From Prolixibacteraceae bacterium (GTDB lineage: Bacteria; Bacteroidota; Bacteroidia; Bacteroidales; Prolixibacteraceae), in the NCBI GenBank assembly GCA_009773765.1, contig WTWZ01000040.1:1-35393 (forward strand): a DNA stretch of 35,393 nucleotides. The letters are read 5' to 3'. Shown here in pieces: positions 1 through 21,277 of this stretch. The position numbers and the translations under genes were made by a program. Numbering within the stretch: the first letter of the stretch is position 1; the number at the start of each line of letters is the position of its first letter. Below the pieces are notes generated by a model. The model was not told where the DNA came from. It ran no database searches and worked only from the letters and a program-made list of their open reading frames with translations.

Positions 1-1
1 T

Positions 2-2336: not shown

Positions 2337-2751
2337 TGTTATAAACATGCCTTTTTTTCTTCAGAAATGAAAAACCAAAAGCAATCTCTTATCCCGCAAC
2401 AGTTATCAAATTTCTCAATGGAATGTTTGTCCAAAAATGAGACAATCAAACCCACTCTACTTAACGCATAAACATTTGATTGTATGCTATTTACTATATG
2501 AGGCATATAAATTGAATGTATATTGTTACGCTTTTTTACTTAAAAAATGAAAATACAGAAGTTGCCAAAAATGCCATTAGAAATTTAAAAAATTACCTTT
2601 TAATGTTCTGTTTAACAGTGAAAAATTGTTTGTGCTGAAACACCGGAAGAAAAAAATTAATACATGGGTTTCGAATCAAAAACAAAAAAACTGAAAAAAT
2701 TAACGGGACAAGCATTTAAAGCATCGAAACCGCTGATAAAAAATTGAAAAA

Positions 2752-3711
2752 ATGAAAACAAAATCGAATCTGACAAAAGGGATTTTAATGATTATCATCA
2801 TTGCCGGAGGCTTAACCTCTAATGCACAACAAGATCCGATGTACACACAATACATGTTCAATACCCAAACTATAAATCCTGCCTACACCGGAACCTGGGA
2901 GTCGTTTAGTTTCATGGTACTGGGGCGCCAGCAATGGGCCGGCCTGGAAGGTGCGCCGCAAACCTACACGTTTTCGATGCAGGCGCCGCTAAAAAACGAA
3001 AGGGTGGCTTTAGGTTTGAATTTGATTAGCGACGTCATAGGTTTGGAAAAAAGGTTTTATATGTTTGGCGATTACTCCTATTTACTTCCCATGAATGACG
3101 AAATGAATCTGCGATTGGGATTAAAAGGAGGTTTTACCAATTACACCAACAATTTACTTGAATACCAGACCAATGCTCCGGGATCAGGAATTACCGACCC
3201 TGCTTTTATGGGCGAAATCGACAGAAAGTTTGTACCCAATTTTGGTGTTGGTGCATTTCTGTTTGGGCAGCGATATTTTGTTGGGTTTTCTATTCCTAAA
3301 ATCTTAAATCATGATTTTGAAAATAATTACAATAATCTGTCAGTATCGCACGAATTGCGTCATTACTTCCTTACAGCAGGATTGGTTTTCGACCTTGGGG
3401 AGAATTTAAAATTTAAACCAACAATGCTGACAAAAGCCACATTTTCATCGGAAACCGGCGCGCCTGTTGAACTTGATTTAACAGCCAACTTCCTGATAAA
3501 AGAACGCTTCTGGCTTGGGGCAATGTACCGCACAGGCGATTCGTATGGCTTTATTGCCCAATGGATTATCGACAAAAAATTGAGGATTGGATATTCTTAT
3601 GATATTACAACTTCAGCTCTGCAGAATTTTCAAAATGGCTCTCACGAAGTGATGATCTCTTACGAAATGCGGTTCCTGAAAGAGATGTTTGCATCTCCGC
3701 GATATTTCTAA
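2752..3711 (+). CDS. PorP/SprF family type IX secretion outer-membrane protein
   Basis: This is a 319-residue protein with a signal peptide (hydrophobic core LMIIIIAGGL, cleavage near SNAQ, about residue 25). The family signature follows directly: QQDPMYTQYMFNTQTINPAYTG, then GRQQWAGLEGAPQTYTFSMQ. The rest alternates as expected for an outer-membrane beta-barrel and ends in an aromatic residue (ASPRYF). PorP/SprF proteins are partners of T9SS substrates with type B sorting domains and help anchor or secrete them. SprF in Flavobacterium sits directly downstream of sprB, and this gene follows an SprB-like adhesin in the same orientation. A terminator in the 500-bp gap suggests it has its own promoter. 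The start is the ATG immediately before the lysine-rich signal peptide. Confidence 0.93.
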   Translation: MKTKSNLTKGILMIIIIAGGLTSNAQQDPMYTQYMFNTQTINPAYTGTWESFSFMVLGRQQWAGLEGAPQTYTFSMQAPLKNERVALGLNLISDVIGLEKRFYMFGDYSYLLPMNDEMNLRLGLKGGFTNYTNNLLEYQTNAPGSGITDPAFMGEIDRKFVPNFGVGAFLFGQRYFVGFSIPKILNHDFENNYNNLSVSHELRHYFLTAGLVFDLGENLKFKPTMLTKATFSSETGAPVELDLTANFLIKERFWLGAMYRTGDSYGFIAQWIIDKKLRIGYSYDITTSALQNFQNGSHEVMISYEMRFLKEMFASPRYF

Positions 3712-3730
3712 TATAAATGATTTGGCCTGA

Positions 3731-3946
3731 TTAAAGCCCAAAGTCCTGTTCTTTCTGGATGATTTTGGGCTTTTCTGTTTGATGTTGTGCAACAAGTTCG
3801 TCAATTAAGGGCAAACATCTCCCGCACGATGTCCCTGCACGTGTTAAATTCTGAATATCCACTGTCGATTCAGCCCCCTTCCTGAATAATAATTTGATTT
3901 CCTTTTTTTCAACAAAATTGCAAATGCAAATTAACCTGTTCGACAT
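3731..3946 (-). CDS. Bfd-like [2Fe-2S]-binding small protein
   Basis: This is a 71-residue protein with four cysteines at residues 7, 9, 41 and 44 (ICIC near the start, SCGRC later). They have the CxC-x31-CxxC spacing of bacterioferritin-associated ferredoxin (Bfd) and the Fer2_BFD domains of nitrite reductases. The fold binds one [2Fe-2S] cluster. In E. coli, Bfd reduces bacterioferritin to release stored iron. Here no bacterioferritin gene is nearby, so the partner is unknown. The gene begins 23 bases after the HD-domain gene on the same strand and may be co-transcribed with it. Confidence 0.85.
   Translation of the reverse strand: MSNRLICICNFVEKKEIKLLFRKGAESTVDIQNLTRAGTSCGRCLPLIDELVAQHQTEKPKIIQKEQDFGL
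3733..3775 (+). terminator. Terminator after the PorP/SprF gene, overlapping the 3' end of the bfd-like gene
   Basis: A 10-bp inverted repeat (3733-3742 with 3764-3773) is followed by a short T run on the plus strand. The hairpin begins within the stop codon of the convergent minus-strand gene and covers its last codons, so it also encodes the C-terminus of that small protein. Confidence 0.7.
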
Positions 3947-3969
3947 TACTTTTAAATCAAAGAAACCGT

Positions 3970-4752
3970 TTACGACATAATTTTATTTTCAGTATAAACC
4001 TTAATTTTTCGGTAGATTTCAATCACTAAATCGTTTTTTGGCAACGAATTATATACATTCTCCAAATACCTGTTTTTTACCAGGAACTCAAATGTTGGAC
4101 GGAAATTCAGGTCGTAAACCCAGGATAACTGCATAATTTTGACATCCATTTCAGAGGCTATATTCTTCTTTGACACCATTTTTCCGGCCAGAATTTCTTT
4201 CGAAACCAATGGTGAAACAGCAGTTCCTTTGGGCAATTCCCATGTTAACGTATGATTTGCTTTTCCGTTTCGGTTGGCATAATATACTCCAAGAACCCTG
4301 AAAATATCGAGCTTATCGGCATCGCGGATTAATTTTGCATGTAATAATTGCTGTCCCGTTAAACCTTCCTGGATTTTGAATTTATTGTGATTTAGTATTG
4401 CAGCAAAAATAAGTTCCCTGTTTTCGATCTGTAATACGTCAAACAAATTCTCTTCTTTCAGAATTTTTACCGCTTCCCCTGCATGATCAACCGATTTTTC
4501 ATCACTAAACTTATCAAATTCAACCAACTGACGAAACCTGCCCAAATCGTGCAATAAACCAACAAGAAATGCAATTTTTTGTTCCTCATCGGTCCATTCA
4601 AGTTTTTCAGCGAGCGAAAGCGCAATTGCAGCTACCCTGAGCGAATGTTCTTTTTTAATGGTGAAATCCGAACTCTGGCTTTCGGTTAACCGGTTAAACG
4701 AACTGCAGTAAGCATTAAACCAGTTTGTCGAAATATCAATCCATTCTTTCAT
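3970..4752 (-). CDS. HD-domain phosphohydrolase
   Basis: This is a 260-residue cytoplasmic protein with an HD superfamily metal-dependent phosphohydrolase domain. The visible metal ligands are H36 (KKEHSLRVA), H68-D69 (GLLHDLGRF), H90 (VDHAGEA), H122 (LNHNKF) and D144/D146 (IRDADKLDIF). This pattern, with two further histidines between the HD pair and the last Asp, resembles HD proteins able to hold two metals. The natural substrate (a nucleotide, cyclic dinucleotide or other phosphate ester) cannot be told. There is no signal peptide or transmembrane segment. The start is the ATG at 4752, preceded by a plausible -7 box. Confidence 0.88.
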   Translation of the reverse strand: MKEWIDISTNWFNAYCSSFNRLTESQSSDFTIKKEHSLRVAAIALSLAEKLEWTDEEQKIAFLVGLLHDLGRFRQLVEFDKFSDEKSVDHAGEAVKILKEENLFDVLQIENRELIFAAILNHNKFKIQEGLTGQQLLHAKLIRDADKLDIFRVLGVYYANRNGKANHTLTWELPKGTAVSPLVSKEILAGKMVSKKNIASEMDVKIMQLSWVYDLNFRPTFEFLVKNRYLENVYNSLPKNDLVIEIYRKIKVYTENKIMS

Positions 4753-4776
4753 TTATACTTTATTTTTTGATAGCTG

Positions 4777-4784
4777 CAAATTTA
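4777..4784 (-). promoter_or_regulatory. Possible -7 box for the HD-domain gene
   Basis: Read on the minus strand this is TAAATTTG, an exact match to the Bacteroidota -7 consensus TAnnTTTG, 24 bases before the start codon. No good TTTG -33 element is seen at the usual distance, so the call is tentative. Confidence 0.4.
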
Positions 4785-4862
4785 TATATATCTAATCACG
4801 GGGAAGTGCCATGCTGCTTTTTTTATTAACATTCAATCACCTGCCAGGTTTGAAATAAAATC

Positions 4863-4892
4863 TTTCATATAACCGGAATTTTGTTATTTTTG
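4863..4892 (+). promoter_or_regulatory. Promoter of tRNA-Arg
   Basis: TATTTTTG at 4885-4892 matches the TAnnTTTG -7 consensus exactly. TTTC at 4863-4866 is one base from the TTTG -33 element, with an 18-base spacer. The tRNA begins 14 bases after the -7 box. Confidence 0.6.
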
Positions 4893-4906
4893 CTGCTCGT
4901 TAAAAG

Positions 4907-4978
4907 GGTCCCATAGTTCAATGGATAGAATGTAAGATTCCGGTTCTTATGATCTGGGTTCGAGTCCCGGTGGGGTCA
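4907..4978 (+). tRNA. tRNA-Arg (anticodon CCG)
   Basis: This is a 72-base cloverleaf. The acceptor stem is GGTCCCA/TGGGGTC (with two G-U type pairs), discriminator A4978. The D stem is GTTC/GAAT with an 8-base loop. The anticodon stem is TAAGA/TCTTA, a perfect match, with loop TTCCGGT, giving anticodon CCG. The variable loop has 4 bases. The T arm is CTGGG-TTCGAGT-CCCGG. CCA is not encoded. The 3' part of the gene overlaps the left attachment site of the mobile element, so its present 3' end is probably donated by the element. Confidence 0.93.
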
Positions 4979-4979
4979 C
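4965..4979 (+). other. attL core: left attachment-site repeat inside tRNA-Arg
   Basis: The 15-base sequence TCCCGGTGGGGTCAC covers the 3' T stem and acceptor strand of the tRNA. It recurs with one mismatch at 12018-12032, 7053 bp away, just outside the integrase end of the element. tRNA 3' ends are the usual target of tyrosine integrases. Confidence 0.8.
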
Positions 4980-4987
4980 TTTTAAAA

Positions 4988-5022
4988 AGTCAACTATTTG
5001 ATTATCAGTAGTTGATTTTTTC
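4988..5022 (+). terminator. Terminator downstream of tRNA-Arg
   Basis: A 7-bp stem (TCAACTA at 4990-4996 with TAGTTGA at 5009-5015) and a 12-base loop are followed by six T residues. It lies inside the element, so the inserted DNA brings a terminator for the interrupted tRNA gene. Confidence 0.75.
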
Positions 5023-5033
5023 ATTTTTGCCAA

Positions 5034-5054
5034 TTTGCACAACATTTGCACAAC
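5034..5054 (+). repeat. Left-end arm-type repeats (two copies of TTTGCACAAC)
   Basis: Two direct copies of TTTGCACAAC (5034-5043 and 5045-5054) have an 11-base period, close to one helical turn. The TTGCACAAC core recurs three times at the other end of the element, beside the integrase gene. This is the expected arrangement of arm-type binding sites for a tyrosine integrase with an N-terminal arm-binding domain. The binding role is inferred. Confidence 0.7.
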
Positions 5055-5069
5055 TTCCATAAAAAAGAA

Positions 5070-5100
5070 TAAAAAAAGGGTAGCCAAAACCCACCCTTTT
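5070..5100 (-). terminator. Leftmost minus-strand terminator of the element
   Basis: An 8-bp perfect stem (5074-5081 with 5093-5100) is followed, on the minus strand, by a T run. It is the last of three minus-strand hairpins that close the element's transcription before the tRNA. Confidence 0.6.
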
Positions 5101-5174
5101 AATGAATACAAACTTGACATTTTGTTATTCAGATAGAAGTTATCCAAATGTACTAATTTTCAGAGAAATACAAA

Positions 5175-5230
5175 TAAAAAGAGGTGCAAAAATTACACCT
5201 CTTAATAAAAAAAACAGTGTTCAACACTGG
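5175..5230 (-). terminator. Two tandem minus-strand terminators after the last element gene
   Basis: Two hairpins lie in tandem. The first in minus-strand order is a 5-bp stem (5215-5219 with 5225-5229) followed by eight or more T residues. The second is an 8-bp stem (5179-5186 with 5196-5203) followed by five T residues. They begin 27 bases after the stop codon of the 74-residue gene. Confidence 0.8.
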
Positions 5231-5256
5231 CTGTTAAATGGGACAGTCCTAAAATC

Positions 5257-5481
5257 TTAATTATCACTGAAAGAAACTGAATTGTTTTCACCGGGATCAC
5301 CCTCAATAAAATCCTGTACCAGTTCTAAATGAAACATCAAATTTTCACGGTCTTTGATTGGCAGGTTTGAAAACATTTCTGAGGTAATGAAATTTCGAAA
5401 TACCAGTTGCAAACTGTTGGTTAATTCCTTCCTACTTGCAAACTGTAACAAAAATTCTCTTGTGTTTTTCTCTTGAATCAT
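5257..5481 (-). CDS. Unknown 74-residue protein at the end of the element
   Basis: I do not recognise this protein. It is 74 residues, mostly helical by composition, acidic at the C-terminus (EGDPGENNSVSFSDN), with no cysteine, signal peptide or membrane segment. It lies 201 bases downstream of the terminase gene and directly before tandem terminators. The gap has no clear promoter, so it may be read through from the terminase operon or have its own promoter. In phage satellites this distal position often carries accessory or interference genes, but there is no sequence evidence for that here. Confidence 0.65.
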   Translation of the reverse strand: MIQEKNTREFLLQFASRKELTNSLQLVFRNFITSEMFSNLPIKDRENLMFHLELVQDFIEGDPGENNSVSFSDN

Positions 5482-5682
5482 AGCGTTTAATTTTAATGTT
5501 GATTATCTATTTTTTATCAATTTTTGGACGTAGTTTGATAAAAGTGTGACCAATACTTTGCCCAATGAAAAAACGTCTTTTTTTTAACCTTTGTAACATT
5601 TTTATTTTCAATTACTTACAAGCCTTTAAAATCTTCCGACCCTTCGCCTCTGAGGTGTGTGACTTGTTAAAAAGTGCCTTTT
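5482..5682. other. Non-coding gap between terL and the last element gene
   Basis: This 201-bp stretch has no supported gene. It contains a short inverted repeat (CCTCTGAGG at about 5648) next to CTTCCGACCCTTCG and a small A/T palindrome near the terL stop codon. A packaging site near the terminase genes would be one explanation, but nothing proves it. Confidence 0.35.
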
Positions 5683-7014
5683 TTAGTGAAACATAGTTGA
5701 AAGTAAATCAATTGAAACGCCCTCATTTTGTGGGTTCAATTCAAAATACATTCTCATCATTAAGGTATCGGAATAGTCCGGGGATCGTCCGATTAGTTCT
5801 TTAACCTTTTCCTTTGGAATAACTGCCAATTTTCCGTCTTTGTCAATATCCTTTCGTTTCACCTGTTCCAATTCTTGAATTAATAGGTTCCTGACTTCAA
5901 TATCTTCTGTTTTAACGCTGATCTCTCCTTTGTTAATCCTATCTGCCAACTCAAAATAACATTGGCTTTTAAGGTTCGAAAAGTTCTGTTTTTGCCCTTT
6001 TACTTCAACTGGCATTGAATTATTAACAAATCCTTTACACCCGACAAAATCAACAATACCACCCCCCACCCCGTCTTCGTCTGCAATGATATTTGACATC
6101 GGTACATTGTAGTTATTTTTCAATCGGTTTATTTCATTTGAAACATCCAAAACAGACTTTTTTTCGAGCGTTATAATCTCAATGACTGTTAATCCATTCC
6201 AAACGAAAATAACAGTTCTATCGCTGCCAAAACGAGCGACATCGACACTGATAAACATTTCTCCAAGGTTATGAGAATTTGAAAAAATATCCGTAATCCG
6301 GTCAAAAGTCATCAGCGCGGTTTTGTCGCCATCATACTCCCAGTTACCAAACAACAATCTTTCTTTCGAAATTAAATCCAGTTGTAACAAGTTCTCTCTG
6401 TAATGCGGTGTTACATTCGGGTTATCTGTAAGCAATGCAGGAATGAATTTCATGTTACCCGGCAAAGTTTTTTCTTTAAAAGGTTTGTAAAATCTTGTAT
6501 AAAGAAAATTTTTGGATGGATTTGAGGTCAATAAAATCTTTGGGATTAATCCAAAATCAGCAAGTTTATAACGGATCCGGCTCTTAACAATGTTAAATGC
6601 CTTTTCCGTTATCTGGCTGCACTCATCCACGAACACACCTGTTAATTCAATACTTCCTAAACTGTCAAAGTTTGGGTCTGATGGATATTGAAATAAATCT
6701 TTCAGCAATATTTCTGAACCGTTAACAAATCGAATACTCATCAACTGTTGATTGAATGAATAGTGAGAACCGGATTTAATGTTTTGCATTTTGGCGACTT
6801 CAAAAAACGTGTTCAAAGTGCTTTCGCGTAAAGTTTTCAATTCACTTCTACCCATTAACCATCGTGAACCGGGAAATTTCAAGCATGACTTTAAAAGCCA
6901 ATAGCAACCAAGAACACTTTTGCCGCCCGCCGCCGCGCCGCCAAAAAGAAGTTCATTGGTGCTGTTGTCTTCTAAATAGTTTAATGCTTCACTTTGTTTC
7001 CTGGTCAATTGCAT
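5683..7014 (-). CDS. terL: Phage terminase large subunit (TerL)
   Basis: This 443-residue DNA-packaging motor is full length for its family and appears intact. The N-terminal ATPase has a Walker A loop GGAAAGGKS (residues 25-33), a Walker B VFVDE (127-131) and a coupling motif LLTSNPS (161-167). The C-terminal RNase H-like nuclease has SVDVARFGSDRT (D258), ADEDGVGGG (D312/D314) and SPDYSDT (D413/D416). It resembles PBSX-type large terminases. TerL normally works with TerS and a portal on an empty capsid, but no portal or capsid gene is present here. It overlaps the end of the small-subunit gene by 26 bases, so the two are translationally coupled. Confidence 0.93.
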   Translation of the reverse strand: MQLTRKQSEALNYLEDNSTNELLFGGAAAGGKSVLGCYWLLKSCLKFPGSRWLMGRSELKTLRESTLNTFFEVAKMQNIKSGSHYSFNQQLMSIRFVNGSEILLKDLFQYPSDPNFDSLGSIELTGVFVDECSQITEKAFNIVKSRIRYKLADFGLIPKILLTSNPSKNFLYTRFYKPFKEKTLPGNMKFIPALLTDNPNVTPHYRENLLQLDLISKERLLFGNWEYDGDKTALMTFDRITDIFSNSHNLGEMFISVDVARFGSDRTVIFVWNGLTVIEIITLEKKSVLDVSNEINRLKNNYNVPMSNIIADEDGVGGGIVDFVGCKGFVNNSMPVEVKGQKQNFSNLKSQCYFELADRINKGEISVKTEDIEVRNLLIQELEQVKRKDIDKDGKLAVIPKEKVKELIGRSPDYSDTLMMRMYFELNPQNEGVSIDLLSTMFH

Positions 7015-7468
7015 AACGTTTTTCTTCCCAAATGATTTTCAACTCAGATTCTGTCTTTTCCGGCAAATCCCACCCCATCATTTTATTTATTCTTTCAATT
7101 GCTACCAGTTTATTGAAAAGTTTGATTTCAGTTTTGCCTTTGTAAATTTTTATGCTTTCGATACATTTTTTCTGAATGTCGCTTAACTCATTTACAGGCT
7201 TAATTCCGCTATCCTGAAACAAGTCTGCAATATTGGCCTTAATAATGTCTGAAAGTGTATTGATAACCTCTTGCTTTGTTATCCCTGCCTGTTCCCTTGC
7301 TTCAATCTGTAACAAACTTATTTTTTTCTGAATGTCAGGTTTTGTCAAGTTTTCGTTTGCAATCCGGTTTGCAGTTTTCGGACTGTACCCGGCTCTTATT
7401 GCTGACTGAGTACCGTTCAAATCAATCAAGTACTGTTCACAAAATTTCTGTTGCCTTGCTGTTAACAT
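6989..7468 (-). CDS. terS: Phage terminase small subunit (TerS)
   Basis: This is a 159-residue protein. The N-terminus matches the Terminase_2 small-subunit family: MLTARQQKFCEQYLIDLNGT, then QSAIRAGYSPKTANRIANEN, a helix-turn-helix for recognising the packaging site. The middle region is helical (oligomerisation), and the C-terminus would contact TerL. It starts 3 bases after the preceding small gene and overlaps terL. In phage satellites an element-encoded TerS redirects packaging to satellite DNA. Here both subunits are encoded. Confidence 0.93.
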   Translation of the reverse strand: MLTARQQKFCEQYLIDLNGTQSAIRAGYSPKTANRIANENLTKPDIQKKISLLQIEAREQAGITKQEVINTLSDIIKANIADLFQDSGIKPVNELSDIQKKCIESIKIYKGKTEIKLFNKLVAIERINKMMGWDLPEKTESELKIIWEEKRYAIDQETK

Positions 7469-7471
7469 GGC

Positions 7472-7681
7472 TTAAACTTTATCTGATAACTTCGCCAAAA
7501 TGCTTAAAACGGTTTGGTGTTCCTTTTCAACTGGTTCCATCGCTTCGACTGCAATACCGATTTTTGTCAGTTGTTCCAAGTCTGCCAACCCATTTTTAAC
7601 CCGGTAAATTTTTTCATTTATGGTTGATAGCCTGTCAATCAGAAAACCAATTTCATCAAGTGTTAATTCTACTGTTTCCAT
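7472..7681 (-). CDS. Unknown 69-residue helical protein
   Basis: I do not recognise this protein. It reads as two amphipathic helices (LTLDEIGFLIDRLSTINEKI and a second segment ending SILAKLSDKV), which suggests a small coiled-coil or adaptor protein. An in-frame TTG lies nine bases upstream, but the ATG at 7681 is preferred because it leaves a 5-base gap after the upstream stop. It lies between a 209-residue unknown gene and terS in a tightly packed operon, so a role in packaging or replication is possible but unsupported. Confidence 0.75.
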   Translation of the reverse strand: METVELTLDEIGFLIDRLSTINEKIYRVKNGLADLEQLTKIGIAVEAMEPVEKEHQTVLSILAKLSDKV

Positions 7682-7686
7682 ATTTA

Positions 7687-8316
7687 TCAATTTAAACGTT
7701 CAATAATCCACGGATTCAGATTTAAGTCTGTACCGTTAAAACTCTCCGTATAATTCATTAAAAACTCCCGGTGTGAATCCGGTACAACCGTTTGAGTATT
7801 CAGGATTGATTTTAGTTCCTGAATCTTTTTATTAATTTGGGTAACAATGTCAACGGCTTGTTTCTGCTTTTCATTTGTCAGATAGATACTGCATAAATCC
7901 CTTAATTTCTGTTCGTCAAAAGTAACTTCAAATGATTCCGAAACATTGAACAGGGTATAATCCTGAATGAGTGCGGTACGTGTGAATTGTTTAGCCAAAT
8001 AATATTCATTCCGCACCTTTTCAGCAATTGAAAGAACTGGTTTTAAAGAATCTTCAATTTGCTTTTTCAAAGATTCATGGACCACCTTTGGAACAGTTCC
8101 CAAATTCATTAACTCTGCCAAATCCTGAACAATTGAGTTTTTAAGTTCCGGGGCGTTATTTACGGCCTGCAACATAATTTCTTTTGTAAAAGGTGTTTTG
8201 AGTTCCAGGCTTTGATAATGTCTTGATAATTCATTCAGTGGCTTTAACATGGCCTGATAAAGCGACAAGTTTTCATTGAAAAACATTTTGTCAAAAAAAT
8301 ACACTTCCTTTTTCAT
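7687..8316 (-). CDS. Unknown 209-residue element protein
   Basis: I do not recognise this protein. It is soluble and mostly helical by composition (for example AELMNLGTVPKVVHESLKKQ and KQAVDIVTQINKKIQELKSI), with no cysteine cluster, no nucleotide-binding motif and no signal peptide. The gene starts 2 bases after the preceding 52-residue gene and ends 5 bases before the next, so it is co-expressed with the replication and terminase genes. It is in the position where small satellites or phages often encode accessory replication, capsid-diversion or recombination proteins, but none of those families can be seen. Confidence 0.8.
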   Translation of the reverse strand: MKKEVYFFDKMFFNENLSLYQAMLKPLNELSRHYQSLELKTPFTKEIMLQAVNNAPELKNSIVQDLAELMNLGTVPKVVHESLKKQIEDSLKPVLSIAEKVRNEYYLAKQFTRTALIQDYTLFNVSESFEVTFDEQKLRDLCSIYLTNEKQKQAVDIVTQINKKIQELKSILNTQTVVPDSHREFLMNYTESFNGTDLNLNPWIIERLN

Positions 8317-8318
8317 GG

Positions 8319-8477
8319 TTAGTAAGTTTTGTTTTTGGTATTGGCTACCCAGTTATCGATCTCCTTTTCAACATCGCGATCATAAATTTTTGAAATCTCC
8401 GCGATAAGTTCACCCTTAAAATTCGGGTCTGATTTTAACGTTTCTTTCAACGCTGATAGTAATTCGCTCTTTTCCAT
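8319..8477 (-). CDS. Unknown 52-residue small protein
   Basis: This short gene fills the gap between the replication protein and the 209-residue gene. It starts ATG at 8477 (MEKSELLSALKETLKSD), has central ELIAEISKIYDRDVEKEIDN and ends NKTY with TAA at 8319, two bases before the next ATG. The protein is helical, highly charged and has no recognised domain. Support comes from its tight packing in the operon (18-base and 2-base gaps) and a full-length reading frame over otherwise unexplained sequence. Confidence 0.7.
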   Translation of the reverse strand: MEKSELLSALKETLKSDPNFKGELIAEISKIYDRDVEKEIDNWVANTKNKTY

Positions 8478-8495
8478 TTTGTAAAATTTTATTAA

Positions 8496-9188
8496 TTAAT
8501 TAACTCCGTTCGCTTTTATTGCTCTTTCTTTTTTTACCCATTCCGGGGTATATTTTTCGGATTGTTCGGATTTTTCTTTGTTATGATTGGAATAAATTAC
8601 CTCATTATTCCAACATTTACCGTTTAAGTAGGTAAAAGGATTTTTTCTAAACTGTTTGTCCGGGGTGCTTTTTATGTATTCAGGTAGGTTTTTAAAAATC
8701 GTTTCAATGTCCTTTGAGTTTAAACTATTCCACTTTTTAAAACATTTCTCTTTATCCGATTTCTTATCGTATAAATCCCAAAAACGCATAAAATCATGTT
8801 TTGATAAATTATCATTTTTATCATTTTTAATATCATTATCATTATTGGCTTTTTTGGGTTCGTCTGGGTTTTTTGGGTTACCAGAATACCCACTGGGTTT
8901 TTTGGGTTTGTTTGGGTTTTTTGGCCTGCCACCTTTTTCACCGTTTCCCCGGTTCCTTTCGCAAATGGCATTGTATTTATCCCGGTTTTTATCAAAAACA
9001 GGTTTCATGAATTGAAATACAATATTCGATATTGTGGATAATTCGGGCATAGTCAGACCCATGTTATACTGAAACATTGCATCAAGTATTTCAGCTTTTT
9101 GTTCGACTGTTAATCCTTTTACCGGGTCATACCAATACCCATAAACGACAAAATTATCGTTATTCTGTTTTTGTACTTTGTCCGACAT
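8496..9188 (-). CDS. DUF6291-like phage replication protein
   Basis: This is a 230-residue protein in two parts. The N-terminal part (residues 1-90: FVVYGYWYDPVKGLTVEQKA, then FDKNRDKYNAICERNRGNGEKGGR) resembles DUF6291, found in phage and mobile-element replication loci. A low-complexity Asn/Pro/Lys linker (about 90-125) joins it to a C-terminal region (FWDLYDKKSDKEKCFKKWNS, then RKNPFTYLNGKCWNNEV). That region resembles the DNA-binding tail of phage replication-initiation or replisome-organiser proteins. The likely role is starting replication of the excised element with host helicase and polymerase, since no helicase or primase gene is present. It overlaps the preceding 64-residue gene by 29 bases. 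Confidence 0.75.
   Translation of the reverse strand: MSDKVQKQNNDNFVVYGYWYDPVKGLTVEQKAEILDAMFQYNMGLTMPELSTISNIVFQFMKPVFDKNRDKYNAICERNRGNGEKGGRPKNPNKPKKPSGYSGNPKNPDEPKKANNDNDIKNDKNDNLSKHDFMRFWDLYDKKSDKEKCFKKWNSLNSKDIETIFKNLPEYIKSTPDKQFRKNPFTYLNGKCWNNEVIYSNHNKEKSEQSEKYTPEWVKKERAIKANGVN
8850..8935 (-). repeat. Low-complexity repeat coding the replication-protein linker
   Basis: Imperfect repeats of AAACCCAAAAAACCC-like units (minus strand) encode the NPNKPKKP / NPKNPDEPKK linker. Slippage in this tract could change linker length. Confidence 0.6.
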
Positions 9189-9354
9189 AACAACTCAATT
9201 TTTTAACCTTTGTAACCAAATAGGGATGAGTTCCAACATCGATCAGAACATATTCCAGTTCATCTTCCAAGCTCATTTTTTTAGCACCTTCCAGTGATAA
9301 AATCTGATAGGTTTTAGGTTTTTGACGATTTGCAAAAAGTTTAAATGTTTTCAT
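9160..9354 (-). CDS. Unknown 64-residue small protein
   Basis: I do not recognise this protein. It is 64 residues, basic at the N-terminus (MKTFKLFANRQKPKTYQILS) with a central acidic helix (LEDELEYVLIDV). It starts 3 bases after the stop of the HTH gene and overlaps the replication gene by 29 bases, so translational coupling is likely. The tight packing supports it being real, but no function can be inferred. Confidence 0.65.
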   Translation of the reverse strand: MKTFKLFANRQKPKTYQILSLEGAKKMSLEDELEYVLIDVGTHPYLVTKVKKLSCYVGQSTKTE

Positions 9355-9357
9355 CGG

Positions 9358-9651
9358 TTATCCGTTAATCAGTTTTCTAACTTCACTCATCTTGTATCTC
9401 CGGCCTCCTCCAAATTCAATAGATTTCAGATAACCTTTTTTGTTCCATCTCCACAACGTTGTCAAATCAACATTAAGCATCTCTGCTACTTGTTTTGGTG
9501 TGGGATAGCTTTCCGCCTTATCCGAGATAACAACCTCCTCCAACTCCCGGCGTGTGTCTGCAATTACTTCTTTATGCCATTCTTTAAGGTCTTTGATTGT
9601 AATTGTCACATTGAAATTTGCATCTGTTTTTAATAACTCTTGAATTTCCAT
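9358..9651 (-). CDS. HTH (excisionase-like) DNA-binding protein
   Basis: This is a 97-residue protein with a C-terminal winged helix-turn-helix of the HTH_17/MerR-like excisionase type (residues about 49-95: YPTPKQVAEMLNVDLTTLWR, then WNKKGYLKSIEFGGGRRYKM, SEVRKLI). The N-terminal half is helical and charged. Proteins of this type in Bacteroidota mobile elements act as recombination directionality factors or transcription regulators. It is the first gene of the replication/terminase operon and is separated from the integrase unit by a bidirectional terminator, so it could control both excision and the operon switch. Confidence 0.85.
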   Translation of the reverse strand: MEIQELLKTDANFNVTITIKDLKEWHKEVIADTRRELEEVVISDKAESYPTPKQVAEMLNVDLTTLWRWNKKGYLKSIEFGGGRRYKMSEVRKLING

Positions 9652-9831
9652 TTTTTATAATTTACTTTTAATCCAATCTGATTAATGTAAATTTAATGGG
9701 TGTGTTTGGTGGTCTGGTGGTGGTTTGTGTCAGTTTCTTGCAACAAAAAAACGAACTAATAATCTGATTATCAATTCGTTTTTTTATTCATGCAAAATTT
9801 TTTGGTGGTGGCTTGGTGGTCACCTATTGAA
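9652..9831. promoter_or_regulatory. Control region between the integrase unit and the excisionase operon
   Basis: This 180-bp non-coding stretch contains two clusters of GGTGGT motifs (about 9705-9723 and 9801-9824) on either side of a strong hairpin. The GC-rich repeats stand out in AT-rich DNA. They lie upstream of the HTH gene and could be operators, excisionase sites or replication iterons. A -7-like TAAATTTA (one base from consensus, minus strand) lies close to the HTH gene. Confidence 0.5.
9745..9785 (-). terminator. Bidirectional terminator after the integrase unit
   Basis: A perfect 11-bp inverted repeat (9745-9755 with 9775-9785) contains an inner repeat (ATAAT/ATTAT) and has A/T tracts on both sides. 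T runs therefore follow the stem on either strand. It ends the integrase plus 222-residue transcript 47 bases after its stop. Confidence 0.85.
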
Positions 9832-10500
9832 TCATCGTTCTTTTTTTGGTCTTTTTAATTTCCTGTCTAATTGTTTAAGCATTACATTGTTTTCTAATTT
9901 GCTTCCATGACCAGAAACAACAGTTTTTTTCCATTGCATTTTTTTACATATATCAGAATACCATTCCTCATCCATAATACCAGATAACCTGTAAGTGAGT
10001 TCTTGAATAAAATTTTGTTTCCGAATATTTAACAGACTAAAATCTGCTGTTTCAATGCTTTTCCTAAAAGTTAAATAATCACAGTCAATTGCAGTTTTGC
10101 ATATTTCGAAAACAACTTTGACCAATCCATCGTCTTTAATAATATATCTTGATTCCTTTTTGCCGTCAAGATGAATAGATAAACGTTCTGATAAATGAAG
10201 AAACAAGTTTCTGTCTTTTATTACATCTTCTTTGTCGAAAATTGATAACAACATATTTCTGTTATCCAAAATTTCATCACAAATCTTGATTGTTTGGGAA
10301 CATTGCCTTTTGCGCAATTCCAGACCTGCGAATGTCAAGTTCTCTAAATTATTAAGATATTCTGTAATCTCATCGTAGAGAATAAAGGTTCCTTCAGAAT
10401 CAATTTCAGTATATTTTTTTCCTGGGCTGGGTGCAATTCCTTCTAATATCAACTTTTGTTCTTCTATTGATAGTAAACTCATATCTATCTCTCTTTTCAT
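9832..10500 (-). CDS. Unknown 222-residue protein paired with the integrase
   Basis: I do not recognise this protein. It is soluble, helical and basic at its C-terminus (LKQLDRKLKRPKKER). The N-terminal segment (LSIEEQKLILEGIAPSPGKK) is followed by a leucine-rich helical middle with no catalytic motif that I can name. It starts 5 bases after the integrase stop codon and shares its transcript, ending at a strong terminator. This is the transcript that would be on in the integrated state, so a regulator, immunity or defence role is a reasonable guess without sequence proof. Confidence 0.8.
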   Translation of the reverse strand: MKREIDMSLLSIEEQKLILEGIAPSPGKKYTEIDSEGTFILYDEITEYLNNLENLTFAGLELRKRQCSQTIKICDEILDNRNMLLSIFDKEDVIKDRNLFLHLSERLSIHLDGKKESRYIIKDDGLVKVVFEICKTAIDCDYLTFRKSIETADFSLLNIRKQNFIQELTYRLSGIMDEEWYSDICKKMQWKKTVVSGHGSKLENNVMLKQLDRKLKRPKKER

Positions 10501-10505
10501 GTCAA

Positions 10506-11813
10506 TTAATCTAAAAGGTTTACCAAATCAATTTTCATTTCCTCATCAATTTCCCGGTAGCGTGCAAATGCTTTGCTTCCTTCTGAATGTCCTGATAAAC
10601 TACCTACCAAATTCGGGTCTTTTACCTTCTTGTAAAGATTTCCAATAAAACAACGTCTTGCCAAATGGGATGAAGCAATTTCATTCAAAGGTCGTTTCTC
10701 CTCTTTCCTTGTTGCTGAATCAAGTACTGTCACCATCCTTTTCAGTCCTGCTACTTCAAACATTTTCTTTATAGCATAATTATAGTTCTGTTCTGCTATG
10801 AACGGAAGTATTTTCCCACCGTCATTTTTTGGATATTTCTTTAATATTTCTTTGGCTGTGGTATTCAATGGAACTCGAACAGTCACCGGGCGGCCTTCCT
10901 TCGTTTTTCGTGCAATATATTCAACTGCACCATTGATCACACTTGCGTTTGTCATGCTATAAAGGTCGCCAACCCGACAACCAATAAAACATTGGAAAAT
11001 AAAAATATCTCTTTGAATTGCCAATTCTGGACTGTCTGAAAGGTCAAATTGATACAGTTGATTCCGTTCCTCAATTGAAATATAATAAGGGGTTCCATAC
11101 AATTCCGGGTCAATAGAATATGATTTGAAAGGATTGTTTTTTGTTTTTTCTGATTTGATTAACCACAAACAAAATGCCCTGTATTTGGATAACATTCCTG
11201 AAATGGTATTTATTCCGCGCGGTTGTGGTGTTCTGCTTTCAGGAATCAATTCATAAATCTTTGGAAACTTTTCAAAAACGCTTTTTTCATCTTTCAAAAA
11301 TGTTTCAATGTCCTGGATCGTGTCTTTTGAAATTGTATCCATATCAAGTGTTATTCCTTTGTAAAGTTCATAACGCTGTAAAGCTCTTTTCAAAACTTTG
11401 TAATGTGCTTTTCTGCCTTCTGATATTTTATGCAGTTTTAAAAAATGATCGAAGATTTCAAAATAGGTTTGCTTTTTTTGTTCAACCTCTTCTGTAATGA
11501 ATTTTTCAGGATACAGTATTTGTTCTATTTTCAAATCAAGTAATTCAGAAGTTAATCCCGGGGTGCTGTCATAGATTGACCTGATCAGCTTCTTACGGTC
11601 TGCAACTCCATTGTCAAACTCAGTCCGCTTTTCTTTTGGATAAACTACTTTAGCTTTAATTACTTGATTTTTTTCGTCAAACATATCCGGTTCAACTTCA
11701 ATTTCCGATTTATGGAATAACTGAATATTCCTTCCATCGCTTACCCGGAAACGGACTTTTACCGTGTCTGCCCTTTTTGCTGATGTCCTGATGAATGCCT
11801 TAACTGATGCCAT
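10506..11813 (-). CDS. int: Tyrosine recombinase (site-specific integrase)
   Basis: This 435-residue integrase appears complete. The N-terminal arm-binding region (about 1-90) is followed by a SAM-like core-binding domain (about 115-220) and the catalytic domain. All catalytic residues are visible: R280 (IGCRVGDL), K303 (ARKTKEGR), H383 and R386 (SSHLARR), H409 (SGHSEG) and Y419 (FARYREI). It would insert the element into the 3' end of tRNA-Arg and, with the HTH protein, excise it. It lies at the end of the element away from the tRNA and is transcribed inward. Its upstream region holds the arm-type repeats and its own -7 box. Confidence 0.95.
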   Translation of the reverse strand: MASVKAFIRTSAKRADTVKVRFRVSDGRNIQLFHKSEIEVEPDMFDEKNQVIKAKVVYPKEKRTEFDNGVADRKKLIRSIYDSTPGLTSELLDLKIEQILYPEKFITEEVEQKKQTYFEIFDHFLKLHKISEGRKAHYKVLKRALQRYELYKGITLDMDTISKDTIQDIETFLKDEKSVFEKFPKIYELIPESRTPQPRGINTISGMLSKYRAFCLWLIKSEKTKNNPFKSYSIDPELYGTPYYISIEERNQLYQFDLSDSPELAIQRDIFIFQCFIGCRVGDLYSMTNASVINGAVEYIARKTKEGRPVTVRVPLNTTAKEILKKYPKNDGGKILPFIAEQNYNYAIKKMFEVAGLKRMVTVLDSATRKEEKRPLNEIASSHLARRCFIGNLYKKVKDPNLVGSLSGHSEGSKAFARYREIDEEMKIDLVNLLD

Positions 11814-11835
11814 AATGTTAATTTTTTATAATTCG

Positions 11836-11876
11836 GTTGTGCAATACGTTGTGCAAATATAAAAAACTTGCACAAC
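11836..11876. repeat. Right-end arm-type repeats (three copies of the TTGCACAAC core)
   Basis: Three copies of the core are present: two as GTTGTGCAA (11836-11844 and 11848-11856) and one as TTGCACAAC (11868-11876). The first two have a 12-base period and are inverted relative to the third and to the two left-end copies. This fits integrase arm sites on the other side of attP. The site at 11848-11857 overlaps the predicted -7 box of the integrase gene. Confidence 0.7.
11854..11861 (-). promoter_or_regulatory. Integrase -7 box overlapping an arm repeat
   Basis: On the minus strand this reads TATATTTG, an exact TAnnTTTG match, 40 bases before the integrase ATG. Its last four bases are also part of the arm-type repeat at 11848-11857, so integrase bound there should block its own promoter. 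No perfect -33 TTTG is seen; ATTG or TTGC lies at about the right distance. Confidence 0.5.
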
Positions 11877-11907
11877 ATAACCGCAATAATTTGAAATATT
11901 ATGTAAT

Positions 11908-11957
11908 TTAATGCAATAAAATATAAGTATTTAAAATATTGATTAACATTGCATTAA
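11908..11957. repeat. Inverted repeat TTAATGCAAT in the right end of the element
   Basis: TTAATGCAAT at 11908-11917 and its exact reverse complement at 11948-11957 flank a 30-base AT-rich spacer. It lies between the arm repeats and the attR core. It could be an excisionase or bending-protein site, or chance in AT-rich DNA. Confidence 0.45.
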
Positions 11958-12017
11958 AATACATAAATGCCTGTTTTTAATGGTATTTTGAAAATATGAA
12001 TTATTGCAGAATTATGT

Positions 12018-12032
12018 TCCCGGTGGGATCAC
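12018..12032 (+). other. attR core: displaced tRNA-Arg 3' end
   Basis: TCCCGGTGGGATCAC matches the tRNA 3' end at 4965-4979 at 14 of 15 positions. It marks the right end of the element, 205 bases beyond the integrase start. The differing base (A instead of G) would pair better with the tRNA 5' acceptor strand than the present base does, as expected if this is the ancestral end displaced by insertion. The rest of the stretch from 11814 to 12199 has no supported gene. Confidence 0.75.
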
Positions 12033-12150
12033 AAAGTTATAAGGAGATACCCTGGTTTCTCTTCTTTTTTATTAAAACCTCATCAGAAGCTTGTATTTTT
12101 TTTCAATCAAATAATACCTTGATCAACTTAATTTTTTTAATTATCCCAGT

Positions 12151-12183
12151 TTTGCAGCATTTAGGCATAAATCCTTAAATTTG
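12151..12183 (+). promoter_or_regulatory. Promoter of the YbbR-like/coaE/DnaJ-domain operon
   Basis: TTTG at 12151-12154, a 21-base spacer and TAAATTTG at 12176-12183 match the Bacteroidota sigma consensus exactly. The start codon at 12200 is only 16 bases beyond, giving a very short leader. The promoter lies 119 bases beyond attR, so insertion of the element left it intact. Confidence 0.75.
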
Positions 12184-12199
12184 CGCTGATTAATATGAG

Positions 12200-13186
12200 A
12201 TGAACAAGAATTTTACTGAAATATCTGATTACGTTAAGGTTGTAAAACTTAGAAATAACAAACGGGTTGCCGTTTTTCTGATTTGCCTTGCCATTGCAAC
12301 CACACTTTGGTTTTTAAATGCGCTCGGGAAAGATTATTCCGCTACGGTTTCTTACCCCGTAAAATATGTAAACCCGCCCGGTAAACGATTTTTGGCCAAT
12401 AATACACCTGTAAAACTCGATTTAAAAATCCAGGGACAGGGATTTACCATTCTCCGATACAGAATGATGTCGTTTTCGCCAATTATACTTGATATTGAGC
12501 AGGTTACAAATAATCTGGAGCCAAATTCTGGCATATATAAAGTGCAGAGCAAAGATCTCATCCGTGAAATTTCCAGTCAGTTAAGCAGCGAAATTCAAAT
12601 TAACGAGATTAACCCCGAAATACTCGAAATAGTTCTTGATAGTTTAATTACAAAAACAGTTCCGGTTGAACTGGATATTCAAGTGGAATTTGTTCCGCAG
12701 TTCAATCTGAAAAATCCCATTAAAACAGTACCCGGCAAAGTTAATATAACCGGCCCGGCTATTGTCCTGGAAAAAATTCAGGTATTAAAGACCAAGGTTA
12801 ACGTCACCAATAAGCTGGAATCGGGCCTCAGTCAGGAAATTGAATTGATTCATCCCGAAAGAACAACAATTTCGCCCGAAAAAGTGAACTTAATAATTGA
12901 AGCCGAAAAATACACTGAAAAGGAATTGAAAATCCCGATCGAAATCATCCACAAACCTGATAAAGTGCAAATTAAGCTTTTTCCTTCGGAAGTAAAGATT
13001 TTGTTTACAGTGGGTTTAAGCCGGTACGAAACCATAAAACCTGCAGATTTCGGGGTTTCGGTTGATTACAATTCAATTGTTGACAATGTTAATAACCTGG
13101 ATATCCTGCTGCACAAAAAACCCGGCTTTATTCAGGGAATCAGGCTGAACCCCGAAAAAGTGGAGTTTCTGATTGAAACAAATTAA
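12200..13186 (+). CDS. YbbR-like domain protein
   Basis: This is a 328-residue protein with one N-terminal transmembrane segment (residues about 24-42: VAVFLICLAIATTLWFLNAL) after a short basic cytoplasmic head. The remainder is extracytoplasmic and beta-rich, with repeated YbbR-like modules (YPVKYVNPPGKRFLANNTPV, VPVELDIQVEF, VPGKVNITGPAIVLEKIQVL). In Firmicutes, YbbR/CdaR regulates the diadenylate cyclase CdaA. In Bacteroidota the YbbR-like gene commonly precedes coaE, as here, and no cyclase gene is next to it, so its partner is unknown. It is followed 27 bases later by coaE. Confidence 0.88.
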   Translation: MNKNFTEISDYVKVVKLRNNKRVAVFLICLAIATTLWFLNALGKDYSATVSYPVKYVNPPGKRFLANNTPVKLDLKIQGQGFTILRYRMMSFSPIILDIEQVTNNLEPNSGIYKVQSKDLIREISSQLSSEIQINEINPEILEIVLDSLITKTVPVELDIQVEFVPQFNLKNPIKTVPGKVNITGPAIVLEKIQVLKTKVNVTNKLESGLSQEIELIHPERTTISPEKVNLIIEAEKYTEKELKIPIEIIHKPDKVQIKLFPSEVKILFTVGLSRYETIKPADFGVSVDYNSIVDNVNNLDILLHKKPGFIQGIRLNPEKVEFLIETN

Positions 13187-13213
13187 TTTCAAAACTAAAT
13201 ACTTCTGTCATCA

Positions 13214-13813
13214 ATGGCTTTAAAGATAGGCATAACCGGAGGAATTGGAAGTGGAAAATCAAGCGTCTGCCATATTTTCAAAATACTCGGAATACCCATA
13301 TTTGAAGCCGACCTTGTTGCAAAAACTGTCATTAATTCGAATACTGAAATAAAAGAAAGTCTGATTTCGCTATTTGGCAGGGAAATTTATGGCAGCGACA
13401 ACCGCATCAACCGGAAAATGCTTGCCAACCTTATTTTTAACGATGATAAACTGCTGGAACAAGTGAACAGGCTGGTGCACCCTGTGGTCAGAAAAGAGTT
13501 TATAAACTGGATGAAAACCCAGGATTCGGAATACATCATTCACGAGGCAGCCATTTTATTAGAAAGCGGTTTTTATAAAATGATGGATTGCACCATTTTG
13601 GTTTCGGCGCCCGAAGAATTGAGGATAGACAGAGTATGCAAAAAAGAAAACATAACGCCTGAGATGGTGCGGAAACGAATGGCCAAACAATGGGCCGATG
13701 AAGAAAAACGGAAACTAACTAACCTTGAAATTGTTAACGACAATAAAAAATTAATCGTTCCGCAAATATTAGAAATAGATAAAAATTTAAAAACACATGG
13801 CAAAATTTGGTAA
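13214..13813 (+). CDS. coaE: Dephospho-CoA kinase
   Basis: This is a 199-residue cytoplasmic enzyme for the last step of coenzyme A synthesis, phosphorylation of the 3'-OH of dephospho-CoA by ATP. The P-loop GGIGSGKS spans residues 9-16. The EADLVAK segment (D33) corresponds to the substrate-binding Asp region. LVHPVVR and the later lid region VRKRMAKQWADEEKR are typical of CoaE, and the length is standard. The last 17 bases overlap the start of the next gene in another frame, so the two are likely translationally coupled. Confidence 0.96.
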   Translation: MALKIGITGGIGSGKSSVCHIFKILGIPIFEADLVAKTVINSNTEIKESLISLFGREIYGSDNRINRKMLANLIFNDDKLLEQVNRLVHPVVRKEFINWMKTQDSEYIIHEAAILLESGFYKMMDCTILVSAPEELRIDRVCKKENITPEMVRKRMAKQWADEEKRKLTNLEIVNDNKKLIVPQILEIDKNLKTHGKIW

Positions 13814-14531
13814 ATGGCTGGGCGGTGGCCTGGGTTGGGCCGTTGGTGGACCCATTGGGGCAATTTTTGGGTTCATGATTGGATCGATGTTCGACGGAAG
13901 TTCTGAGTTAATGAAAACAACCACCCGCACAGGTTATTCGGGACAGACAACTACAGGGGGTTATGTGATGAGTTTGCTGGTATTAACTGCCTCGGTGATG
14001 AAAGCCGACAGCAAGGTTTTAAAATCGGAACTCGATTATGTTAAAAAATTTATGGTGCATAATTTTGGCGAAGCATCGGCAACAGAAGCTGTTAGGTTGC
14101 TCCGCGATTTGCTGGATCAAAATATTCCGGTGGACGAAGTTTGCCGGCAGATAAAACAAAACATGAACTATTCGGCCCGTTTGCAACTGCTGCATTTTTT
14201 GTTTGGCATTGCCATAGCCGACGGACTGGTAGATGCAAATGAAAGGGGGCTGATTGAATACATCAGTCGCGGGATGGGCTTAACCGACAAGGATTTTGAA
14301 TCGATTCAGGCCATGTTTGTGCCAAATACAGATACCGATTATAAAATCCTGGAAATTGAACCCGTTGCCACCGACGAGGAAGTGAAAAAAGCATACCGCC
14401 GGATGGCCATGAAATTTCACCCCGACAAGGTGAGCCACCTGGGTGAAGATTTCCAGAAGGCGGCCAACGGGAAATTCCAGAGCGTGAACAAAGCATACGA
14501 AAACATCAAAAAAGAGCGGGGAATAGTTTGA
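13797..14531 (+). CDS. TerB-like/DnaJ-domain protein (DjlA-type co-chaperone)
   Basis: This is a 244-residue protein. The glycine-rich hydrophobic N-terminus (GKWLGGGLGWAVGGPIGAIF, GFMIGSMF) could be a membrane anchor with GxxxG-like spacing. A TerB-like helical domain follows (about 55-165: VMSLLVLTASVMKADSKVLK, LLHFLFGIAIADGLVDANER). The C-terminal J domain (about 180-244) contains HPD at residues 208-210 (MKFHPDKVSH), the motif that stimulates DnaK. This order matches DjlA of proteobacteria, a membrane-linked DnaK co-chaperone. It ends the operon. Confidence 0.88.
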   Translation: MAKFGKWLGGGLGWAVGGPIGAIFGFMIGSMFDGSSELMKTTTRTGYSGQTTTGGYVMSLLVLTASVMKADSKVLKSELDYVKKFMVHNFGEASATEAVRLLRDLLDQNIPVDEVCRQIKQNMNYSARLQLLHFLFGIAIADGLVDANERGLIEYISRGMGLTDKDFESIQAMFVPNTDTDYKILEIEPVATDEEVKKAYRRMAMKFHPDKVSHLGEDFQKAANGKFQSVNKAYENIKKERGIV

Positions 14532-14537
14532 TATTAA

Positions 14538-14566
14538 GCCCCCTCTAACTCCCCCAGGGGGGAGAA
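14538..14566 (+). repeat. GC-rich palindrome after the DnaJ-domain gene
   Basis: A CCCCCTCTAACTCCCCC-type sequence folds back as CTCCCCC/GGGGGGAG (14549-14555 with 14557-14564). It is very GC-rich for this intergenic region and no T run follows, so it is not a normal intrinsic terminator. Similar C-rich/G-rich palindromes occur dispersed in Bacteroidota intergenic regions, and this may be one of them. Confidence 0.4.
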
Positions 14567-15184
14567 CAGAACCAGAAAATTAAAATGAAAAGTTAATAAT
14601 ACGTTTATGGCGGCAAGCTGCAATAAGGATTTACTGAAACGGTGGGGTAATTTGATTTAACGCCGAAAATAATTTCATTGCTAAGAGTTGTTTAAAAAAC
14701 TGGCTCCATTTGGCCTGCTTGTATGTTTCGTTCTGGTCTGTTCCCAAAAAGCACTAATTTTTTACTGTTTTTTTAATTTTAAATATATTTTTAGCAACAA
14801 TCAAATGTTCATTGATAAACAAAGTCCCTGCATTGAAATTTTCACTTTTAACCCTCGAAGCCTTCCTTCCTTCCGAATAACAGATATTTGCCAAATAATT
14901 TAGGACAACTGATTAACAACAACTTGTACGAACAAGCATTTTTTAATAAAAAAAGCAGAGTATCAGTAATACATAAAAATGTATAAAACCGGCCTTTAAA
15001 AAATGTGAATGCAAAAATGCTAATTTGTATCCTCAAAAGGTAAACATCCCAAGTATGGTTGATTTATCAACAAAAAAATATCAGGATATTTAACAAAAAC
15101 AGTTGATGAAACAAAAATAAAATATCATATTTGCTTACAGTAAAAAAAACATATTTTTAAATATTAATTTAAACATTAACGACT
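14567..15184. other. Long AT-rich intergenic region before the lamin-tail protein gene
   Basis: This stretch of more than 600 bp is AT-rich and has stop codons in all frames at short intervals, and no supported gene. It must hold the promoter of the 1325-residue protein gene, but I could not find a clean TTTG/TAnnTTTG pair. The final 80 bases before the start codon are almost pure A/T. Confidence 0.5.
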
Positions 15185-21268: not shown

Positions 21269-21277
21269 TTTAAAATT

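Follow-up and report, generated by a model that had tools for sequence, protein, structure and literature searches.

A putative phage satellite with its own terminase at a tRNA-Arg gene of a Prolixibacteraceae bacterium

Phage satellites named in the accessible parts of five papers (PMC10690885, PMC10803314, PMC12324425, PMC13376191, PMC11389934) are PICI, cf-PICI, PLE, P4-like, PICMI, VEIME, tycheposon and the Streptomyces satellites. This work concerns an element of about 7.05 kb at a tRNA-Arg gene of a Prolixibacteraceae bacterium (Bacteroidota), found in a stretch of 35,393 nt that was analysed as a whole and is called the window (contig WTWZ01000040.1 of assembly GCA_009773765.1). The element is probably an intact integrative phage satellite, which would put its own terminase onto the procapsid of a helper, and other viruses probably carry it in their particles.

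Searches of the open-licence literature, which misses most subscription papers and a main satellite survey, yielded no phage satellite of Bacteroidota. The accessible parts of the five papers describe no satellite from this phylum and no capsid-less one with both terminase subunits. PICI, including the SaPIs, have an integrase and replication genes, and some SaPIs also have a small terminase subunit (TerS) that redirects packaging (PMC10690885, PMC13376191). The cf-PICI encode the large terminase subunit (TerL) and TerS and also capsid, protease, portal and connectors (PMC10690885). PICMI, which are found in Vibrionaceae, have about 6.1 kb and few genes, do not remodel the capsid and enter particles of full size as a concatemer of eight copies (PMC10803314). 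Besides TerS and TerL, the Mulch/Flayer satellites of Streptomyces encode a portal and a capsid; key replication genes are absent from them (PMC10690885).

Comparison with described satellites

As far as the accessible text describes these types, the element resembles some SaPIs in being an island with integrase, replication gene and TerS, and differs from PICI by the addition of a TerL and by its Bacteroidota host. Both terminase subunits are common to the element and to cf-PICI, but none of the capsid, protease, portal and connector genes of the latter was recognised in it. The small size and low number of genes recall PICMI; PICMI, however, lie beside fis and have no identifiable packaging genes, whereas the element has a full terminase and a tRNA site. 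With Mulch/Flayer the element shares TerS and TerL and is otherwise their reverse, since it has a replication gene and no recognised portal or capsid.

Hallmark genes of PICI serve interference and capsid redirection, and P4-like satellites have psu/sid-type capsid genes. No match in the element was obtained to capsid-redirecting or PICI-specific proteins (Pfam, PHROGs, PADLOC) or to psu/sid-type capsid genes (Pfam, PHROGs), and with a TerL of its own, which PICI do not have, it falls outside both the PICI and the P4-like types. It has the general traits of a satellite, being a discrete integrated element with attachment (att) repeats and an integrase and without a full set of virion and lysis genes. 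TerS and TerL could serve the diversion of packaging, by acting on a helper. A private terminase used on a foreign portal is not among the strategies of the satellite types compared, as they appear in the accessible text, VEIMEs and tycheposons being compared by name only.

The closest phage in this comparison is Flavobacterium phage 11b, in which TerS is followed by TerL in the same order and whose TerL is 54% identical to that of the element. In phage 11b the TerL gene is followed by portal, minor head protein, protease and capsid genes, while in the element only a 74-residue open reading frame (ORF) and the att site follow.

Insertion site and gene content

The integration target is a tRNA-Arg (ccg) gene (4907..4979, + strand), whose 3' end is now derived from the element. 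The att copy within the tRNA, TCCCGGTGGGGTCAC (4965-4979, + strand), and the far copy, TCCCGGTGGGATCAC (12018-12032, + strand), which according to the repeat and tRNA comparisons is the displaced original tRNA 3' end, are separated by 7053 bp and are identical at 14/15 positions. This is the 15-base direct repeat given in a preliminary description of the locus, which did not mention the mismatch. The pair is unique, as no other + strand 15-mer of the window matches with up to three mismatches.

The tRNA gene adjoins an HD-domain gene, which was detected in 32/37 genomes of the genus, and in all 30 loci compared, including that of the window, tRNA-Arg(ccg) lies beside it. In the acceptor stem of the 29 relatives, T3 is found with A70 in 22 and C3 with G70 in seven. 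Only the window, among the 30 tRNA genes, has T3 with G70, and the displaced copy carries the expected A, which shows that the present tRNA end was brought by the element and that the old one was moved to the other side of it. ARAGORN calls a tRNA-Arg both in the occupied site and in the joined empty site. In one relative (G021), PorP, HD, tRNA-Arg, three small genes, YbbR and CoaE follow one another as read by eye, and the element is absent; the three small genes are not found in the window, so this locus is not an exact empty site. Other relatives, also read by eye, have serine-recombinase-like ORFs (L120, L122, L126) or a tyrosine-integrase-like ORF (L123) 3' of the tRNA-Arg(ccg) beside the HD gene. 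The site may be an insertion hotspot.

Between the att copies there are eleven ORFs, all on the - strand and read leftward. The tyrosine integrase has 435 residues (10506..11813; Pfam, PHROGs and alignment), and its alignment contains the motifs GCR, KTK, HLAR, GHS and RY, which we take to be catalytic. An adjoining 222-residue protein (9832..10500) has no family in Pfam or PHROGs. The HTH_17 protein of 97 residues (9358..9651; Pfam, PHROGs) is a candidate excisionase or regulator; it matches phrog_66 (E 5.9e-8), and its helix-turn-helix (HTH) part also matches a transposase PHROG (E 3e-6). It is followed by a 64-residue ORF (9160..9354), scanned against PADLOC only and with no family there, and by a 230-residue protein of DUF6291 or phage replication-initiation type (8496..9188; E 2.2e-22; phrog_16304, E 1.6e-32; phrog_270, E 3.4e-14). 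Next come a 52-residue ORF (8319..8477), a 209-residue protein (7687..8316) that resembles in position and size a protein family of other elements described below, and a 72-residue ORF (7472..7690). TerS, with 159 residues (6989..7468), is a Terminase_2 protein (Pfam E 5.8e-34), and TerL, with 443 residues (5683..7014; Pfam, PHROGs and alignment), retains the residues invariant among phage TerLs. The last ORF has 74 residues (5257..5481) and, like those of 52 and 72 residues, no family in Pfam or PHROGs.

Apart from the terminase, no match to lysis, conjugation or relaxase proteins and no convincing one to structural proteins was obtained for ten of the eleven proteins against Pfam and PHROGs, the closest to a structural match being a tape-measure PHROG (E 0.036) on the 209-residue protein. 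PADLOC families gave no match for the eight element proteins scanned, which include the 64-residue one. A scan of IMG/VR with the DUF6291 protein returned eight distant loci. The preliminary description had listed an integrase, an HTH gene called excisionase-like, a DUF6291-like gene, TerS, TerL and at least six unknown genes between the repeats, and had noted the lack of structural, lysis and conjugation genes. The Pfam and PHROGs matches agree with the five named genes, phrog_66 with the excisionase-like label, the six remaining ORFs (52 to 222 residues) with the unknown ones, and the family scans, within the scope just given, with the lack of the others.

Both ends of the element look complete. 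Of the six copies of a 9-bp motif, TTGCACAAC, in the window, five lie in the 481 bp just inside the two ends: two copies on the + strand start at 5035 and 5046, 11 bp apart, at the TerL side (5035..5054), and three, two on the - and one on the + strand, start at 11836, 11848 and 11868 at the integrase side (11836..11876). Their clustering at the ends suggests that they are arm sites of the integrase, and they are treated here as putative.

Just inside the element a hairpin with a T-run (4984..5021, + strand; -13.4 kcal/mol, z -4.83) is likely the terminator of the tRNA gene, and three terminator-like hairpins of the structure scan lie 3' of the leftward operon (5074..5229, - strand). A further hairpin stands between the integrase operon and the HTH-TerL operon (9735..9795, - strand; z -6.52). 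In the region, six terminator-like sites are observed and 4.6 are expected from shuffles. An old tRNA terminator to the right of the displaced att copy was considered and dropped, as the folding there is no better than that of shuffles (z -0.11). Upstream of the integrase the repeat scan gives a 19-nt inverted repeat of 95% complementarity (11899..11966, strand not assigned). Between 5001 and 12000 the 1-kb bins have a G+C content of 0.32-0.37, against 0.36-0.46 in the other bins of positions 1-20000. Outside the element, a run of secreted glycoside-hydrolase-like proteins (15185-27175) is followed by a SusC/SusD-like pair (27199-35393) on the strand opposite to that of the hydrolase-like run, both as read by eye.

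Similarly built elements and relatives of the terminase

The plan of the element recurs at other tRNA genes. In a genome of another family of the order (G329), the element L108 has an integrase, a 173-residue protein, HTH_17, proteins of 446, 71 and 210 residues, a DUF5681 protein and TerL, beyond which lie a tRNA-Met and then cellular-type genes. Two identical 17-bp copies, at 3101 and 10253, mark its tRNA-Met site and a span of 7152 bp, and the protein family scans give no structural family beyond the terminase. The element L224 (genome G174) has an integrase, a 318-residue protein, HTH_17, AAA_25, a BT4734-type primase, a 205-residue protein, a 99-residue TerS-like protein and three small ORFs, and is flanked by perfect 17-bp copies of a tRNA-Gln end with a span of 6975 bp. 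Its 99-residue protein has no Pfam match at E 0.01, the likeness to DUF5681 coming from an alignment; weak tail-type PHROG matches (E 0.0097 and 0.033) fall on the 99-residue and an 81-residue ORF. In L227 (genome G1274) an integrase, a 240-residue protein, HTH, AAA-type and primase-type ORFs (the last three by eye) and a 212-residue protein precede the start of a TerS-like gene, within which the contig ends; a tRNA-like fragment there has a weak score (17.6 bits, E 0.45).

L224 was reached with a three-row profile made of the 209-residue protein of the window and its counterparts in L108 and in a short IMG/VR contig (L191), run against 393 genomes at E 0.01. Seven of the 393 genomes matched: G000 and G329, which had contributed sequences to the profile, then G174 (E 6e-13), and four others with weak scores. 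Two of the weak matches, a NusB-like protein (G387) and a conjugation-type region (G355), both judged by eye, are chance matches, so profile E-values near 0.001 are not to be trusted. A four-row profile run on the family of G174 matched two of 27 genomes, G174, itself in the profile, and G1274 at E 1.9e-22.

The window's element, L108 and L224 have in common the gene order, one strand for all genes, tRNA sites and no convincing structural genes. The common plan is an integrase, a variable protein, HTH_17, a replication gene, a protein of 205-210 residues and a TerS-like protein, with TerL optional. L108 and L224 belong to two other families of the window's order, and the spans of the three complete elements, 6975, 7053 and 7152 bp, agree within 2.5%; L108 and L224 also served to suggest the definition of the family by order, strand, tRNA att site and a span of 6.98-7.15 kb. 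Motifs clustered inside both ends, as in the window, are GTGTACG in L224 (5/6 copies) and TTCCAAT in L108 (4/8). The integrases are distant, with 18-32% identity to that of the window, and the replication genes differ, those of L108 and L224 not being DUF6291. The preliminary description had proposed that the order integrase-HTH-DUF6291-TerS-TerL would be found in other att-flanked islands of 6-9 kb. That proposal holds for the architecture, with L108 and L224 complete and L227 cut, and fails for the gene set, as DUF6291 is absent from them and TerL from L224; the exact set occurs in the window only. Its satellite interpretation is supported by these islands of like plan at tRNA-Met and tRNA-Gln.

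The TerL of the window is 60% identical to that of L002, which has portal, MuF and capsid matches, and the TerL of L108 is 81% identical to that of L190, in which portal- and MuF-type genes follow TerL. This proximity would be consistent with terminases held in common with potential helper phages. In a TerL tree of 55 rows, the window, L108 and the uncertain L189 and L191 fall among phage rows at two places; the starred branches imply a minimum of two state changes, though not necessarily two origins, and the tree carries a long-branch warning.

L189 and L191 are short IMG/VR contigs, the former with HTH, AAA_25, a DUF6371 primase, a TerS-like protein and a TerL with a stop after residue 362, the latter with a 208-residue protein, TerS and TerL. 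Because of their length, and of the stop in L189, they are satellite-like loci not counted as members, and are possible further members. A 149-bp scrap in the genus of G329 (L188:11879-12027), with 87% DNA identity to the TerL end of L108 and a stop, is perhaps what is left of an element of the L108 kind.

Searches with TerL covered 61 genomes of relatives, in which only the own genome matched, and, at E 0.001, 393 genomes of the order, of which 16 matched; at stricter limits five of 395 genomes matched in the class and five of 395 in the phylum, the own genome being included in each count. In IMG/VR, 80 of 216 TerL relatives were listed and inspected. A scan of genome contigs gave six loci, none clearly a satellite, the ORFs being read for L098 and L102 and the others judged by matches and clusters. 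Several loci were set aside as phage-like: G343 has a Versailles-type portal at 67%; G407, G201, G228 and G158 have ORF clusters in common with viral contigs; and, by eye, G466 and G1162 have long runs of phage-type genes, G1038 a 656-residue portal-like ORF followed by cellular-type genes, and the 5-kb record MT838643 further phage-like ORFs by TerL. The ORFs of G534 were read and the locus was not taken as a satellite.

Two metagenome-assembled genomes of Flavobacteriales (L098:7478-13865 and L097) contain a block with HTH, a TerS-like protein, TerL and proteins of 170 and 358 residues, the last resembling a phage major head protein at 22%. L098 has four more small ORFs, and its block lies between cellular-type genes; by eye, no integrase, portal or tail gene was seen in either block. 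A lone TerL among cellular-type genes (L102) and a TerS-TerL pair surrounded by ORFs of opposite orientation (L101) are found in metagenome-assembled genomes named outside Bacteroidota, which could be binning errors or other elements.

Packaging model and alternative explanations

In the proposed mechanism, the integrase, its directionality governed by the HTH_17 protein, would insert the element at the 3' end of the tRNA-Arg gene and remove it from there. Upon infection by a helper or its induction, the element would excise and replicate by means of the DUF6291 initiator. Its own TerS would then select the element DNA, and its own TerL, of the kind found in Flavobacterium 11b-like tailed phages, would dock on the helper portal. 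The sequence itself shows the integration, the matched ends, the gene content, the conserved TerL residues and the repetition of the plan elsewhere; the excision role of HTH_17, the start of replication by DUF6291 and the loading by TerS and TerL are predicted from the protein families. Helper capsids would be filled, probably with several head-to-tail copies since no capsid-size gene was seen; this number of copies is a guess from PICMI, as reported in the accessible part of PMC10803314, and from the ratio of the 36,012 bp of phage 11b to about 7.05 kb.

Several observations weigh against this interpretation. The own genome has no match to an 11b-type portal profile, a search that had no positive control, nor to PF04860, which was detected in four of 14 control genomes, so that no resident helper of 11b type is seen. 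L224 keeps the plan without any TerL, which shows that TerL is not a constant core of it. Only three elements are complete, and the agreement of their spans could be chance. TerL matches are scarce, and those examined are mostly phage-like. The IMG/VR scans gave no near relative of the 222-residue, the 209-residue or the integrase protein of the window. In addition, the locus L006 has a left block with an integrase, a 350-residue protein, HTH, a primase, TerS and TerL (57%). L006 was rejected as a satellite and is classed as prophage-like, since tail-type genes come next, along with a portal-like ORF on the opposite strand. It is a looser form of the block that runs into phage genes, and truncation could yield such a block.

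The place of the 209-residue protein in the plan also counts on this side. A protein of about 205-212 residues is common to L108, L191, L224 and L227 (31% identity over 206 residues between L108 and L191), but the window's protein scores E 0.7 against the profile of these four, ninth among 1642 ORFs, with four unrelated ORFs scoring higher and nine of 2000 shuffles scoring as high. A comparison with hhalign gives a P of 0.069. The protein has the same size and place as that of the other elements, and homology with it is not demonstrated by these scores. Its structure model is poor (pLDDT 40.9), no match at E 0.01 to it or to its counterpart in L224 was obtained among 50,697 phage records, and a scan with the pair from L108 and L191 recovered only L191. 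A regular expression that groups it with the proteins of L108 and L191 was built post hoc and is discounted as evidence.

An unlikely alternative is that an ordinary 11b-like prophage lost its genes from portal to lysis, between TerL and the tRNA, and left the element as a remnant. The portal gene that directly follows TerL in phage 11b, the portal-cluster ORF present in 34 of 94 clustered TerL loci and the left block of L006 are what a deletion of this kind would predict. A chance deletion accounts poorly for the matched putative arm sites at both ends and for genes that are all open reading frames. Moreover, L108 and L224 have other integrases, tRNAs and replication genes and end where the window's element ends, their spans agreeing within 2.5%, and L224 has the plan without TerL; this recurrence weakens the remnant explanation. 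The preliminary description had held that the element would be such a remnant if, in close relatives, its gene block continued at this locus into portal, capsid and tail genes. No such block was seen, and none of the 36 same-genus genomes has a TerL match at E 0.001.

It is less probable still that the element is integrative and does not use capsids in the manner of a satellite, the terminase being cargo or having another role, for example in packaging like that by a gene transfer agent or in the resolution of replication intermediates. The plan without TerL in L224, the fact that no helper was identified and the isolated terminase genes of L101 and L102 speak for such a role. In the window and in L108, however, TerS and TerL stand together at the end of the operon, as in phages, and the residues invariant among phage TerLs are kept. 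That a simple integrative island was mobilised by accidental transduction is very improbable. In Bacteroidota, integrative elements commonly contain integrase, HTH_17 and AAA/primase modules; L224, and L227 by eye, have these modules, and recombinase-like ORFs occur 3' of the tRNA-Arg site in some relatives. A TerS-TerL pair is not expected in such an island, and the proteins scanned against Pfam and PHROGs include no relaxase or conjugation match.

The integrative satellite with its own terminase is the preferred explanation. More tentatively, and at somewhat less than even probability, the elements may form a separate satellite family of Bacteroidota, consisting of tRNA islands of about 7.0 kb with one architecture and size, which would exchange the integrase target, the replication module and the terminase and use a private motor on a foreign portal. 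Some members would bring a complete TerS-TerL motor, and none a recognisable capsid gene. Their size would be set by packaging, for example with five copies of about 7.1 kb filling an 11b-type capsid of roughly 36 kb (36,012 bp).

If this is true, Bacteroidota would have satellites of their own, and the nearly constant span of 7 kb across tRNA genes would offer a measurable indication that packaging constrains their size. Packaging would be uncoupled from capsid formation, with an element that supplies the whole motor and borrows the shell, and the matching of terminase and portal across phages would become directly testable.

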